Assembly: GCA_020722065.1 (NCBI GenBank) | Contig: DYLK01000024.1 | Coordinates: 1-36,795 of the forward strand | Origin: Melioribacter roseus | Lineage (GTDB): Bacteria > Bacteroidota > Ignavibacteria > Ignavibacteriales > Melioribacteraceae | Direction of reading: 5' to 3' | DNA: 36,795 nucleotides | Part shown: positions 16,542 through 20,674 of the stretch, piece after piece | Position numbering within the stretch: position 1 is the stretch's first letter | Layout: each line of letters opens with the position of its first letter | Notes under the pieces: generated by a model | Databases searched by the model: none | Told to the model about the DNA's origin: nothing | The model's input: only the letters and a program-made list of their open reading frames with translations | Program-made: the position numbers and the translations under genes

Positions 16542-16555
16542 ATAATACGTCTTAT
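16542..16555. promoter_or_regulatory. Near-palindrome upstream of the metal-uptake genes
   Basis: ATAATACGTCTTAT pairs six of seven positions around a central ACGT. It lies in the short gap between rsmE and the His-rich small gene, where an operator would be expected. Fur-family sites often contain GATAAT half-sites, and GATAAT begins at 16541. This is only suggestive. Confidence 0.25.
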
Positions 16556-16581
16556 ACTAATTAAATATTGAAAGTTAAAAT

Positions 16582-16926
16582 TTGAATAAATTGATAAATA
16601 AATATCGCCGAAACAACTCAAAATTATTAGCAATTGTTCAGTTTCTTTTAATTTTTCAGATTTCTTTTCACGTTCACCCAATTGATATAGCCGCTCACCT
16701 TTTTGATGAAATTAAAGTTGAACACTCAATTTCAGATTCGCATTCGCCGGTTGGTTGTGCGATTATTTTCCATAGTAATGAACGTTCCGAAGAAAATTCA
16801 TTATTTGATAAAATAGTAGTACTTTTTGATACAAACCAATATTTTGAAAATCCACAAAAAAAGTCAACAACAAATTTCTCACTAACTGAGAATAAACGAG
16901 GACCTCCAGAAATAGTAATTAATTAG
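16582..16926 (+). CDS. Small His-rich exported or membrane-anchored protein
   Basis: This is a 114-residue protein of no named family that I can confirm. A basic start and hydrophobic run (about 14-29) form a signal peptide or anchor. The following stretch 30-64 carries six histidines and one cysteine (H30, H32, H39, H48, H54, C59, H64), ending in CAIIFH. This layout recalls the small DUF2946-like proteins that precede metal-related TonB receptor genes. A role in metal binding is inferred from the residues and from the ZnuD-like receptor two genes downstream. The start is TTG at 16582 (or TTG at 16591); there is no ATG in frame and no clear ribosome-binding site. Confidence 0.6.
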   Translation: MNKLINKYRRNNSKLLAIVQFLLIFQISFHVHPIDIAAHLFDEIKVEHSISDSHSPVGCAIIFHSNERSEENSLFDKIVVLFDTNQYFENPQKKSTTNFSLTENKRGPPEIVIN

Positions 16927-17005
16927 AATTTATCAAAATTAGAGTTCAGGGAATACAATTTTTCCCTAATTCATAACTATTAATTATTAATCTTTTGGAG
17001 AAAAA

Positions 17006-17824
17006 ATGAAAAAAATAATTTTATTATTAACCATTGTATTTTCACAATTTTTATTTACTGCTTGCGATGAAAATGTTTCACCAACAGGAAAACACATTGA
17101 AGCAGTCGGAATGGCATTTTATGCATCGGGCATAAAAGTAGCCGAAATCTTACGAGGTGAAACTTCCGATACACTTTATGCACCAGCTGGTGGTTTGGGA
17201 GATCATATTGAAATTAAATTTATTGACGAAAATGGTAATGAATTTGCAGTTGAAGAAGATGCTGAACAAACTTTAGCTTGGGAATTTGCGAATCCAAGTA
17301 TTGCTACTATTTGGCAACACGAAGGTGAAGAAGGTAGTTTTGAATTCCACTTGCAAGGTTTATTAGTTGGAACAACAACAGTAGAATTCTTTGCTATGCA
17401 TAATGATCATTATGATTATCGCTCAGGGAATATCCCTGTTAAAATCATTAATCAATCTGGTAGTCATGGTGCCCCTATCGGAGCAATTTTAGAAGACGAA
17501 GAATCTGGGAATATTTTAGCTCGAATTCAAGATTCAACTGTAACTGGACAATTATCGATTGCAGCAGGTTCAACTTCAGATCATATAGAGATAACATTAT
17601 TTGATGCAAATGGAGTAGAATTTCAGCCACCAGTTCCACCACATAGCTTAAATATTGTTAGTGGAGATGAAAGTAAACTTCAGATTGAACAAGCTTCTGC
17701 GGAAGAACCTTGGGCATTCAAATTAATTGGTGTACAAAGTGGAACAACAACAATTACAATCCAAATTTATCACGACGAAACCCTTGGCAAACAGTTTGTT
17801 CCAATCAACGTTAATGTTTATTAA
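17006..17824 (+). CDS. Lipoprotein with two tandem copies of a His-bearing domain
   Basis: This 272-residue lipoprotein has a signal ending FTAC (cysteine 20). The mature part is two copies of one domain, residues about 29-148 and 153-272. They share an N-terminal histidine (GKH30, GSH154), DHIEI (66-70 and 192-196), an FIDENG/LFDANG turn, EF, and a GTTT stretch (122-125 and 246-249) before a strand with histidine (H132/H135 and H256). The repeated His and acidic positions would suit metal binding. The ATG has GGAG five bases upstream (16997-17000). The gene is nine bases before the ZnuD-like receptor, so it probably encodes the surface or periplasmic partner of that receptor. An Ig-like fold is likely but not shown. 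Confidence 0.75.
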   Translation: MKKIILLLTIVFSQFLFTACDENVSPTGKHIEAVGMAFYASGIKVAEILRGETSDTLYAPAGGLGDHIEIKFIDENGNEFAVEEDAEQTLAWEFANPSIATIWQHEGEEGSFEFHLQGLLVGTTTVEFFAMHNDHYDYRSGNIPVKIINQSGSHGAPIGAILEDEESGNILARIQDSTVTGQLSIAAGSTSDHIEITLFDANGVEFQPPVPPHSLNIVSGDESKLQIEQASAEEPWAFKLIGVQSGTTTITIQIYHDETLGKQFVPINVNVY

Positions 17825-17833
17825 GGATTTATC

Positions 17834-20053
17834 ATGAATCTTCATTATTCAAAGAGAGTAATTTTTACTCTCTTTGTTTTTTTCCTTTCGACCGTAATTT
17901 TTGCTCAAAATTCAAAATTGCAAGGAATTGTTTTAGATTCTGAAACAAATCAACCATTAATATCTGCTGCAATTGAATTGCTAAATGAAAATCAATATAC
18001 AATTTCAGATGGAAATGGCATTTTCAATTTTGATAACTTGAACAATTCGCAAATAAAAATTAGAATAACTTATTTAGGATATAAAGAAGGAATATTTACT
18101 ATTGATTGCAACAAAGAAAAATGTTCAAAAATGATATTCTTTTTAATTCCTGAAGCAGTTGAAGTTTCTACAATTGTTATTACTGATCATAATGAAAAAG
18201 CAGTATTTGATGATTTGGCAAACCTTTCAAATGTGTTGAGCGGTAGAAAACTTGAGAAAGATTTAAGCGTAACTTTAGCCTCTACACTTAAAAATGAGAC
18301 TGGTTTAGCAATGCGTTCTATGGGACCAGCTCCATCTCGTCCAGTAATTAGAGGTTTGGGTGGCGATAGAGTTGTTTTAAGTGAAGATGGGAATAAAACC
18401 GTAGATTTATCTGCCACGTCTCCAGATCACGCAGTAACAATTGAACCATTCGGAATTGAGAGAATTGAAGTAATTCGCGGACCAAAACTGCTTTTACAAA
18501 CTTCCTCAACAATTGGTGGAATTGTGAATGTTATTAAAAATGAAATCCCGACAAAAATTCATAAAGCCCCATTTGGGACACTCGGTTTTTACGCTGAAAC
18601 TGTGAATAGTGGTTACCTTGGCTCTGCTAAATTTGAAATTCCAATTTCAGATTTTGAAATACGCGGAGAAATGAGTAAACGAAAAACATTGGATTTGTCA
18701 ACTCCAATTGGCACTCTTAAAAATACTTATTCAGATAATTCAAATTTCTCTATCGGAAGCAGTTATATTCAAAATTTTGGATTAATTGGTGCGTCTTTTC
18801 GTGGATTTACTTTGAATTATGGAGTTCCTGGCGGATTTTTGGGAGCTCATCCACACGGTGTTGATATCGAAATGCAAAAATATCAATCTAATGGAAAAGT
18901 GCGTTTCAATTTACATTCTGATAAAATTGATCATATAATAATTGATTTTTCACAAGTTTATTATAGACATAAGGAATTTGAGAAAAACGGTTCAATCGGT
19001 GCTGATTTTTTAATTAATCAATATTTAATCACTTCCAATCTTGATTTTAAAAAGTTATTATTTGATGATGATGGAACTTTGGGAATTTCGAGTAGTTATC
19101 GCGACTTCAAAATTGGTGGGTTTGTGTTTACTCCACCTTCATATTCCACAAATTTTTCAGCATATTTTTATGATAGAATGAAATTCAACGATTTTCAGTT
19201 AGAATTGTCTTCACGAATTAATTACGATTTGATAAAACCTAAATACGAAGATTATTCATCTGGAATTGGAGCAATTAGAAAAAGAGAATTTACTACTTTT
19301 TCAGGAAGTATTTCAGCAATTTATAATCTAACAAAAAATGTTGCTTTCGGTGGAAATATCAGTAAATCATCTCGTGTTCCAACAATTGAAGAACTTTTTT
19401 CAGAAGGACCACATCTTGCAGCCTATTCTTATGAAATTGGAAATCCAGATTTGAATGCTGAAACTGGTTTAGGTTCTGAAGTATTTCTCTATCATAACTA
19501 TGATAAGTTAAAAGTGAACGTTAATATTTTTTATAATTATTTACCATATTACATTATTCCAAGAAATACTGGGGAAATAAATTGGGCAACATTCCTACCG
19601 ATTTTTGCAAGTACAGGAGTTAATGCATTGTTAACTGGAAGTGAAATGCAAGTTGATTGGAATATTTATCAAAATTTATCATTAAATTTATCGGCAAGTT
19701 ACACTTATGGCGAAATTGTAAATGAAAAAGTTCCATTACCTCAAATTCCCCCGCTAAAAGGTATTGTCGGAATCAATTATATTTCTTCCGACATAAATTT
19801 AGGTGTTATTGGGGAGTGGGCAAATTCGCAAAAACGAGTTGATTACAATGAAGAACCAACTGCTGGTTATTTTATTATAAATGTTTACGGACAATATTCT
19901 CTGAAAATGAATGAATTTATTCATAATTTATCACTTTCTATAGAAAATCTATTGAATCAAGAATATAGGAATCACCTTTCGCGTGTGAAAATTATTTTGC
20001 CAGAAAGTGGTTTTAATTCAAAATTAACTTATAAATTATATTTCCATTTTTAA
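17834..20053 (+). CDS. TonB-dependent receptor, ZnuD-like (probable zinc)
   Basis: This 739-residue outer-membrane receptor has a signal peptide (cleavage near IFAQ) and a carboxypeptidase-regulatory-like domain (about 28-110). The plug carries RPVIRGLGGDRV (from R169), an SPDHAVTIEP segment, IEVIRGP and IGGIVNVI, and the barrel ends in YFHF. The RPVIRG...SPDHA...RGP order, and the NYGVPGG stretch followed by HPHG (339-342), are features I associate with the ZnuD family of zinc receptors. Histidines in this loop are likely ligand contacts. AGGA lies six bases before the ATG. Neighbouring His-rich and duplicated-domain proteins support metal uptake. Cobalt, nickel or another metal cannot be excluded. 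Confidence 0.88.
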   Translation: MNLHYSKRVIFTLFVFFLSTVIFAQNSKLQGIVLDSETNQPLISAAIELLNENQYTISDGNGIFNFDNLNNSQIKIRITYLGYKEGIFTIDCNKEKCSKMIFFLIPEAVEVSTIVITDHNEKAVFDDLANLSNVLSGRKLEKDLSVTLASTLKNETGLAMRSMGPAPSRPVIRGLGGDRVVLSEDGNKTVDLSATSPDHAVTIEPFGIERIEVIRGPKLLLQTSSTIGGIVNVIKNEIPTKIHKAPFGTLGFYAETVNSGYLGSAKFEIPISDFEIRGEMSKRKTLDLSTPIGTLKNTYSDNSNFSIGSSYIQNFGLIGASFRGFTLNYGVPGGFLGAHPHGVDIEMQKYQSNGKVRFNLHSDKIDHIIIDFSQVYYRHKEFEKNGSIGADFLINQYLITSNLDFKKLLFDDDGTLGISSSYRDFKIGGFVFTPPSYSTNFSAYFYDRMKFNDFQLELSSRINYDLIKPKYEDYSSGIGAIRKREFTTFSGSISAIYNLTKNVAFGGNISKSSRVPTIEELFSEGPHLAAYSYEIGNPDLNAETGLGSEVFLYHNYDKLKVNVNIFYNYLPYYIIPRNTGEINWATFLPIFASTGVNALLTGSEMQVDWNIYQNLSLNLSASYTYGEIVNEKVPLPQIPPLKGIVGINYISSDINLGVIGEWANSQKRVDYNEEPTAGYFIINVYGQYSLKMNEFIHNLSLSIENLLNQEYRNHLSRVKIILPESGFNSKLTYKLYFHF

Positions 20054-20064
20054 AAAGGTTAGAA

Positions 20065-20637
20065 ATGAAAAGAATATTATTTTTTGTTGTATTGATTTTA
20101 TTGATTGAGAATATTTCAGGTCAAGTCTCAATTTCCTCAGAAAAATATAATGCTGTGAATGAAATCAAACCACTTCCTGAAGGAATGACTTATGCAGAAT
20201 TTCAGAAAATTCAAAGATATGTAGATTGGAAAAAAATTACTGTTGCAGCAATCTTACCTGGTTATATTCATTTTTATTCTGCAAAACCCGAAATTGGTTG
20301 GGCAATTTTTGGAACTCGATTAATTGGAAGTTTGATGATGGGATTTGCAATGTATGACCAATATAAAATTTCAAATGCTTTGGATTTTGCAATCGATATC
20401 AATTCCGAAGCTGACCAAAGTCGGACACGAAACAATGCGATTGTTTTTTCTACGGGACTTGTTTTAAATATGTTAGGTTTTGCTTTCGATTGGGCACACG
20501 GTGATTGGGTTGTAGAATCTGAACGGAATCAAGTCTATTTTAAATATGGAATTGATGAAGAAAAAAGGAAATTGTTAGGAATTTCATATAATTCTGAACT
20601 AAACACTCCCGAAATATCATTTTCACTTAAATTGTAA
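20065..20637 (+). CDS. Small membrane protein, 190 residues, unrecognised
   Basis: The protein has a signal peptide (about 1-20) and hydrophobic segments around ITVAAILPGYIHFY, GWAIFGTRLIGSLMMGFAM and NAIVFSTGLVLNMLGFAF. The LPG...Y pattern followed by a membrane hairpin recalls the DUF5683/P13-like proteins of FCB bacteria and resembles the protein at 31209-31928. I cannot assign a function. It follows the ZnuD-like receptor by 11 bases, with AAAGG before the ATG, and is the last gene before a strong terminator. It therefore belongs to the metal-uptake transcript. Confidence 0.72.
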   Translation: MKRILFFVVLILLIENISGQVSISSEKYNAVNEIKPLPEGMTYAEFQKIQRYVDWKKITVAAILPGYIHFYSAKPEIGWAIFGTRLIGSLMMGFAMYDQYKISNALDFAIDINSEADQSRTRNNAIVFSTGLVLNMLGFAFDWAHGDWVVESERNQVYFKYGIDEEKRKLLGISYNSELNTPEISFSLKL

Positions 20638-20674
20638 AAATAAGGACGTTCAGTTGAACGTCCTTATTTTTTTT
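20636..20674. terminator. Bidirectional intrinsic terminator
   Basis: TAAGGACGTTCA (20641-20652) pairs with TGAACGTCCTTA (20655-20666), a 12-bp perfect stem with a two-base loop. A T-rich run follows on the right and an A-run precedes on the left. It separates the convergent metal-uptake transcript (plus) and glgP (minus), so it can serve both strands. Confidence 0.88.

Follow-up and report, generated by a model that had tools for sequence, protein, structure and literature searches.

Positions 16542-20637 of a Melioribacter roseus contig (DYLK01000024.1; the window, that is, the whole stretch of 36,795 nucleotides (nt) that was analysed) hold a plus-strand unit that is probably a zinc-uptake operon under translation-arrest control. 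It starts with a short exported-type open reading frame (ORF), followed by a lipoprotein gene, the gene for a ZnuD-like TonB-dependent receptor and a fourth gene. We regard as evenly balanced the proposal that the short ORF is a zinc-sensing arrest leader whose two arrest proline codons double as the anti-Shine-Dalgarno (anti-SD) sequence of the uptake operon, an arrangement that would recur in many families of the phylum. To our knowledge this would be the first post-transcriptional zinc switch built on a nascent exported peptide; the link to zinc uptake and the anti-SD role of arrest codons appear to be new. Most of what is known of zinc control of genes in bacteria concerns transcription factors, Zur among them. 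If the proposal is true, a nascent-peptide sensor reads zinc outside the cytoplasm, which would explain how the building of receptors is matched to the metal actually arriving, and an unannotated family of lipoproteins gains a functional context.

The window is contig C2 of a genome (G000) of 2.38 Mb that is rated complete. An ORF listing confirmed the four consecutive plus-strand genes from which the initial annotation had built a metal-acquisition module; that observation is thus confirmed, and the interpretation placed on it is partly supported by what follows.

A putative arrest leader before a conserved lipoprotein and receptor pair

The distribution of the unit was analysed in 296 genomes of the phylum to which the window belongs. 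The lipoprotein was found in 66 of them and the receptor in 83, own genome included, with only the top three receptor candidates per genome scored. In 63 of the 65 genomes other than that of the window the receptor lies directly 3' of the lipoprotein on the same strand; the exceptions are G019, where the two are on separate contigs, and G043, where the match is weak (E 3.7e-4). The ZnuD-like receptor and the lipoprotein are therefore a conserved pair. Outside the window, 98 receptor places were obtained: 67 closer ones (at least 380 bits), all examined, and 31 weaker ones, of which 30 were examined, the remaining one being the second fragment of a split gene. A search of the genome_contigs collection with the lipoprotein returned one locus, and none was found in plasmids.

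The first gene (16582-16926, plus strand) has a TTG start and encodes 114 residues, with a hydrophobic N-terminus, H30-x-H32 past this signal segment, a single Cys (C59) and the sequence RGPP at residues 106-109, five residues before the end. The Cys stands 47 residues before the Arg of this motif. The predicted arrest codons, CGA GGA CCT CCA, occupy 16897-16908 on the plus strand. RAPP and RGPP are reported to be avoided in proteomes and to arrest ribosomes; RGPP gave the most stable arrest among the RAPP-like motifs tested, and upstream ORFs ending in RAPP or RGPP before TonB receptors are described as widespread in Gram-negatives (PMC12992588). In a RAPP-type stall the first proline is reported in the P site and the second in the A site (PMC10951233); by analogy, the codon at 16903-16905 would occupy the P site and that at 16906-16908 the A site. 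The small protein also passes the filters described for CutF-like proteins (PMC9973294), namely fewer than 150 residues, a signal segment, Pro-Pro within the last 15 residues (here 108-109) and a same-strand gene within 1,000 nt (here after a gap of 79 nt).

We defined a leader as a short ORF that has R[AGS]PP at its end, within the last 32 residues, and lies at most 2 kb upstream of the receptor. Such an ORF precedes 58 of the 67 closer receptors and 14 of the 30 weaker ones (9/16 and 5/14 in two sets), compared with 3 of 97 sites (3/83 and 0/14) in an opposite-strand control, and all 12 additional loci from the family to which the window belongs have one. It also precedes several more distant receptors without a lipoprotein match. 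Trivial reasons account for three of the nine closer sites without a leader: G065 has RDPP, G289 lies at a contig edge, and G019 carries its lipoprotein with an RGPP leader on another contig. The initial annotation had suggested a search for co-occurrence of these partners with such receptors; they do co-occur, and the grouping of lipoprotein, receptor and small ORF goes beyond chance. RDPP endings were seen in two leaders, at L031 (689-1009) and in G065 (L104); RDPP is reported to be partly permissive for arrest (PMC12992588).

The motif lies 1-7 residues from the C-terminus in 67 of 68 leaders. Its frequency among leaders is no test, because the leaders were picked by it, but their other features are. 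A Cys occurs at -50 to -44 from the motif Arg in all 67 full-length leaders (shuffle mean 12.9, maximum 23), the 68th, a truncated ORF, having been dropped from this count. Of the same leaders, 65 have an H-x-H upstream, compared with a shuffle mean of 23.5 (maximum 34), and 64 have a hydrophobic segment. This conserved geometry can be read directly from the sequences. On these traits, the best reading of the small protein is that of a putative exported metal-sensing translation-arrest leader of the CruR or CutF kind.

CruR (bp2923, DUF2946) of the cruR-bfrG-bp2921 operon of Bordetella pertussis is described as having RAPP three residues before its end and CXXC 45 residues upstream, a spacing that is functionally important; copper relieves the arrest and the TonB receptor is switched off. 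A copper receptor family behind CruR has been described (PMC12914433). The likeness is close: a short exported-type leader comes first in the operon, a TonB receptor follows, a RAPP-like motif stands at its C-terminus with a metal-binding site about 45 residues upstream, and the receptor is off, or here expected to be off, in the presence of metal. The differences are that our receptor is ZnuD-like, that a lipoprotein gene intervenes, that one Cys and H-x-H replace CXXC, that sequestration of the Shine-Dalgarno (SD) sequence by the arrest codons is predicted in place of Rho, and that the score stays below the DUF2946 cut-off. CutF of Rhodobacter capsulatus is likewise reported as shorter than 150 residues, with an N-terminal signal, a C-terminal Pro-Pro and a stem shielding the next SD; unlike the switch proposed here, it turns its target on with copper, and the CutF-like His-only clusters described adjoin HupE/UreJ (PMC9973294). 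ApdA, ApdP, ApcA and SecM share with our leader a RAPP-like arrest module and the SecM logic, in which a stall frees the SD of the gene that follows, but they monitor protein export, whereas here there is a metal site and a metal-uptake target.

Predicted pairing of the putative arrest codons with the next Shine-Dalgarno sequence

In the window, the plus-strand arm CUCCAGAA (16904-16911) overlaps the arrest codons and is predicted to pair with UUUUGGAG (16993-17000), the SD arm of the lipoprotein gene with GGAG at 16997-17000, which would therefore be sequestered unless a ribosome stood on the arrest codons. The core of the predicted pairing is C16904-U-C-C16907, within the two proline codons, with G16997-G-A-G17000. 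It holds in a 280-nt context with a probability of 0.998, and the junction between leader and lipoprotein folds at z -3.3.

The same pairing was computed, using ATG starts only, for those leaders (33 of 80) that are followed by a gene with an identifiable SD in range; this next gene is the lipoprotein, or in G148 the receptor. The SD core pairs with the footprint of the stalled ribosome at a mean probability of 0.67, compared with 0.14 for shuffles (n=33), and above 0.5 in 24 of the 33 (1.00 in the window). In a protein-preserving control, which combined synonymous recoding with a shuffled intergenic region, pairing was 0.24 versus 0.67 for the real sequences (Wilcoxon p ~1e-6, an optimistic value, as are the other p values here, because the loci are related yet were treated as independent). 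Individually, 17 of the 33 loci are at or below 0.05 by this control, and the first proline codon with the following two bases reads CCTCC in 23 of 33. The effect is weaker over all 60 junctions irrespective of SD, with values of 1.27 against 0.66 for pairing (p 0.02) and of 0.46 against 0.53 for an unpaired SD region (p 0.0004), a set in which GTG and TTG starts were allowed and some wrong starts were chosen, for example in G027.

The SD of the receptor gene, TAAGGA (17822-17827, plus strand), overlaps the stop codon of the lipoprotein gene, which suggests translational coupling of the two; control of the lipoprotein would then carry to the receptor. We infer an arrest, its polarity and zinc as its signal, and propose the following course. 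The 114-residue leader would be exported co-translationally. A ribosome stalled on the arrest codons would cover the anti-SD, so that the SD of the lipoprotein gene would be exposed and the lipoprotein and the coupled receptor made. Zinc, when present, would bind the emerging H30/H32 and C59 with their neighbours and relieve the stall, after which the SD would be sequestered again and uptake turned off. The lipoprotein, probably on the cell surface, would bind zinc and pass it to the receptor. The net outcome would be a zinc receptor made only under zinc scarcity.

An arrest leader of this metal-sensing type could instead act by Rho-dependent termination between leader and lipoprotein, and not by SD sequestration. 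CruR acts through Rho, 9 of the 33 SD-bearing loci pair below 0.5, and for 47 of the 80 leaders no SD could be recognised in range, all of which this alternative accommodates; against it, the gap between leader and lipoprotein in the window is just 79 nt, AU-rich by eye, and SD pairing is well above its controls. We consider it unlikely, though the most serious of the competing explanations.

A hairpin of 12-13 base pairs followed by a T-run, terminator-like, lies within the first codons of the receptor gene (17850-17886). Something similar occurs in 10 of 83 related loci, so that it is not conserved; it could attenuate the receptor relative to the lipoprotein.

Receptor, lipoprotein and the choice of metal

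The receptor (17834-20053, plus strand, 739 residues) contains a TonB plug (PF07715), a barrel (PF00593) and CarbopepD_reg_2 in Pfam. Its best NCBIfam family is NF038289 (ZnuD) at 203.9 bits, followed by a hemin family at 133.8 and the copper family TIGR01778 at 77.5; the NF038289 cut-off is 950 bits, and we therefore name the receptor ZnuD-like and do not file it as ZnuD. Its closest solved relative is the ZnuD of the PDB, whose zinc site is given as D90/H100/E340/H499 (PMC4557270). When the numbering is shifted by 14 relative to the PDB sequence, H100, E340 and H499 are indeed His, Glu and His, and an Asp directly precedes H100, so we take the printed D90 as D99. Alignment places D198, H199, E381 and H527 of the window as the equivalents of D99, H100, E340 and H499. 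These four, and loop residue H339 as well, do not vary among 48 of 48 receptors; the set comprises the window and 47 of 83 sites, those at which the retrieved DNA spans most of the gene. The receptor is thus ZnuD-like, as the initial annotation had recognised from its motifs, and by alignment its zinc site is complete. The HPHG loop to which that annotation had drawn attention does begin at residue 339, and its first His is present in 48/48 and aligns close to the H241/H243 loop of ZnuD, but its second His occurs in the window alone. The receptor thus resembles Neisseria meningitidis ZnuD in plug and barrel, in all four zinc ligands and in a conserved His near that loop; it differs in its N-terminal CarbopepD_reg_2, in a score far below the cut-off, in its constant lipoprotein neighbour and in its leader.

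A second pointer to zinc comes from G062 (L036, 6992-10992), where znuA-znuC-znuB-fur-leader-lipoprotein-receptor follow one another on one strand. The first five genes, znuA to leader, overlap or lie within 3 nt; the znu and fur genes were called as ZnuA, ATP-binding cassette (ABC) ATPase, ABC-3 and FUR, and the lipoprotein has two domains. Unlike in a plain leader-headed operon, znu and fur genes stand before the leader and the TonB receptor after it. It is because of the ZnuD-like receptor and this znu-fur operon that we propose zinc as signal and cargo. The genome of the window has two Fur-family genes. At G112:C1:1158444-1163600 (L099, L178), a distant, leaderless D-H-E-H receptor is flanked divergently by ZnuA- and ZnuC-like sequences (22% and 34% identity).

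We also scored the ligands of 28 distant receptors without a lipoprotein match, in two batches of 14. D or E, then H, E and H, stand at the four positions in 21; the other seven read A-H-E-D (three), D-D-E-Q (one) and R-H-E-H (three). A leader accompanies 12 of the 21 with the full ligand set and one of the seven without. The link had looked stronger in the first 14 (8/11 versus 0/3); it became only loose once 14 further weaker sites were added, and we do not use it as support for zinc. The R-H-E-H receptors are diverged TonB receptors at G250:C2:516399-518480, G081:C6:45278-47308 and G274:C67:92125-94167; the first two lie on the same strand just 3' of a ZnuD-like receptor, and the third has its own leader 586 nt upstream.

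The lipoprotein (17006-17824, plus strand, 272 residues) has the lipobox LFTAC, with Cys20 as the lipobox Cys, and two immunoglobulin (Ig)-like His-bearing domains. As the initial annotation had noted, a single domain occurs here twice; the copies share 25% identity, and the second no longer has the whole His site. No family was found in Pfam or NCBIfam scans. In an alignment of the 57 sequences that passed lipobox extraction, of 70 tried, H113 of the mature protein is kept in 57/57, H116 is His in 49, D118 is Asp in 47 and H11 is His in 46. A model of the domain, from a four-row alignment of the domains of the window and L031, is all-beta with an Ig-like arrangement (predicted local distance difference test (pLDDT) 67.5); the best rows in a structure comparison are the S-layer protein SbsC (Z 9.7, root-mean-square deviation 5.2, 104 aligned) and nuclear-pore chains, and CopC and PcoC rank lower in a Foldseek list. 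We draw no function from this fold, a common Ig-like arrangement; the full-length model is poor (pLDDT 57.2).

The ten residues past the lipobox Cys are acidic (D/E 0.37, compared with 0.18 further along), and at least two acidic residues occur at +2 to +6 in only 18 of the 57 lipoproteins. In Bacteroidota an acidic stretch after the lipobox can mark surface export, and here it is only a hint of surface exposure. Lipoprotein and TonB receptor pairs are known in the same phylum, as in SusD/SusC, BtuG/BtuB and HmuY/HmuR. The present pair resembles them in that the lipoprotein gene adjoins its outer-membrane receptor gene, and differs in that the lipoprotein belongs to an Ig-like His-bearing family without a Pfam or NCBIfam model. 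A role as surface or periplasmic zinc partner of the receptor is plausible, because the two adjoin in 63 of 65 genomes. Of the other metal-capture partners envisaged by the initial annotation, the small protein has the traits of an arrest leader, and conservation of the module does not extend to the fourth gene.

The same architecture could serve copper as signal and cargo, in an operon of the CruR type whose receptor has diverged. CruR and CutF, the members of this class that have been characterised, sense copper, CXXC is retained in 32 of the 67 leaders, and OprC-type TonB receptors are among those that CruR homologues precede. The receptor speaks otherwise: it scores 203.9 bits as ZnuD versus 77.5 as TIGR01778, it has all four zinc ligands, and OprC, when aligned, lacks the DH and the GPH His. 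The znu-fur neighbours in G062 and the single Cys of the window leader, at -47, also argue against copper, which we hold improbable. The initial annotation had proposed that the small protein is a metal-binding partner, and its His content, export signal and constant place beside the receptor module speak for this. That it is such a periplasmic partner, with R[AGS]PP a coincidence or sorting signal, is very improbable given the position of the motif, within 1-7 residues of the end in all but one of 68 leaders, the nearly fixed Cys-to-motif spacing, proline codons that pair with the next SD more than the protein sequence demands, and the reported avoidance of RAPP and RGPP (PMC12992588).

Zinc-related relatives of such leaders have been described in efflux contexts. 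In Caulobacter the Zur-activated czr/zntA efflux cluster begins with a DUF2946 gene, CC2720 (PMC4176598), and CzcI, which precedes czcCBA, is discussed as a CutF-like sensor of metal (PMC9973294); the passages covered concern efflux clusters and make no mention of leader arrest or zinc sensing, unlike the uptake receptor here. A zinc arrest leader was not found in the literature searched. The word 'zinc' is absent from the main text of PMC12992588, PMC10987492, PMC9973294 and PMC9426467, and 'ZnuD' from PMC9973294.

Several observations weigh against a zinc-sensing arrest leader under SD control. Six of the 67 closer sites lack a leader for no trivial reason. Leaders are alike in motif, spacing and place and hardly in sequence: that of the window has no tblastn match in 40 related loci, one match (32% identity) among 15 family loci and no Pfam match, and DUF2946 (PF11162) matches 3 of 10 relatives' leaders, all below its cut-off (best 22.1 versus 23.7 bits). 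CXXC, the copper sensor of CruR, is retained in 32 of 67 leaders, so that some of them may sense copper. The optimistic p values temper the pairing result, and pairing is nearly absent (<0.2) in 8 of the 33 loci; f30, the largest family sampled, contributes no locus to the 33 that have an SD, and a switch in that family must work in another way. The receptor's shortfall from the ZnuD cut-off belongs here too, as does the four-ligand set in 21 of 28 distant receptors, which marks a wider receptor group that the leader follows only loosely. In the lipoproteins of G026, G054, G163, G038, G100, G187 and G262, other residues stand in place of the second His and of the Asp in HxxHxD, although the adjoining leaders and receptors are kept, which counts against zinc binding by every lipoprotein. 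Finally, neither ZnuA nor ZIP was matched in the window's genome, rated complete.

Fourth gene, palindrome and terminator

The fourth gene (20065-20637, plus strand, 190 residues) shares strand and terminator with the others here and lies outside the conserved module. No tblastn match (E 1e-3) was found in 40 related loci, and the gene is present in 11 of 79 family genomes, own genome included. In G297 and six more genomes it occurs without any module gene nearby, some of these stretches stopping at contig ends; in G357 the order receptor, fourth gene, glgP is retained, with the contig ending within the receptor. The initial annotation had counted this small membrane protein among the parts of the module; it is not conserved with the module, the grouping beyond chance does not extend to it, and it is a passenger of the transcription unit.

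Upstream of the leader, the 14-bp palindrome with which the initial annotation opened the unit (16542-16555, no strand) exists, but it is imperfect (6 of 7 pairs match) and unremarkable in the genome. Its exact form occurs once; with one mismatch allowed, the reversed-pattern control is commoner (18 versus 53 forward). A reading as a Zur box was rejected because a genome scan gave no regulon signal, and by eye no palindrome common to the upstream regions of 24 leaders was seen; it may be part of an operator or promoter, without regulon support. At the other end, an intrinsic-terminator-like hairpin of 16 pairs with a T-run (20636-20671, plus strand) closes the unit, in agreement with the initial annotation.

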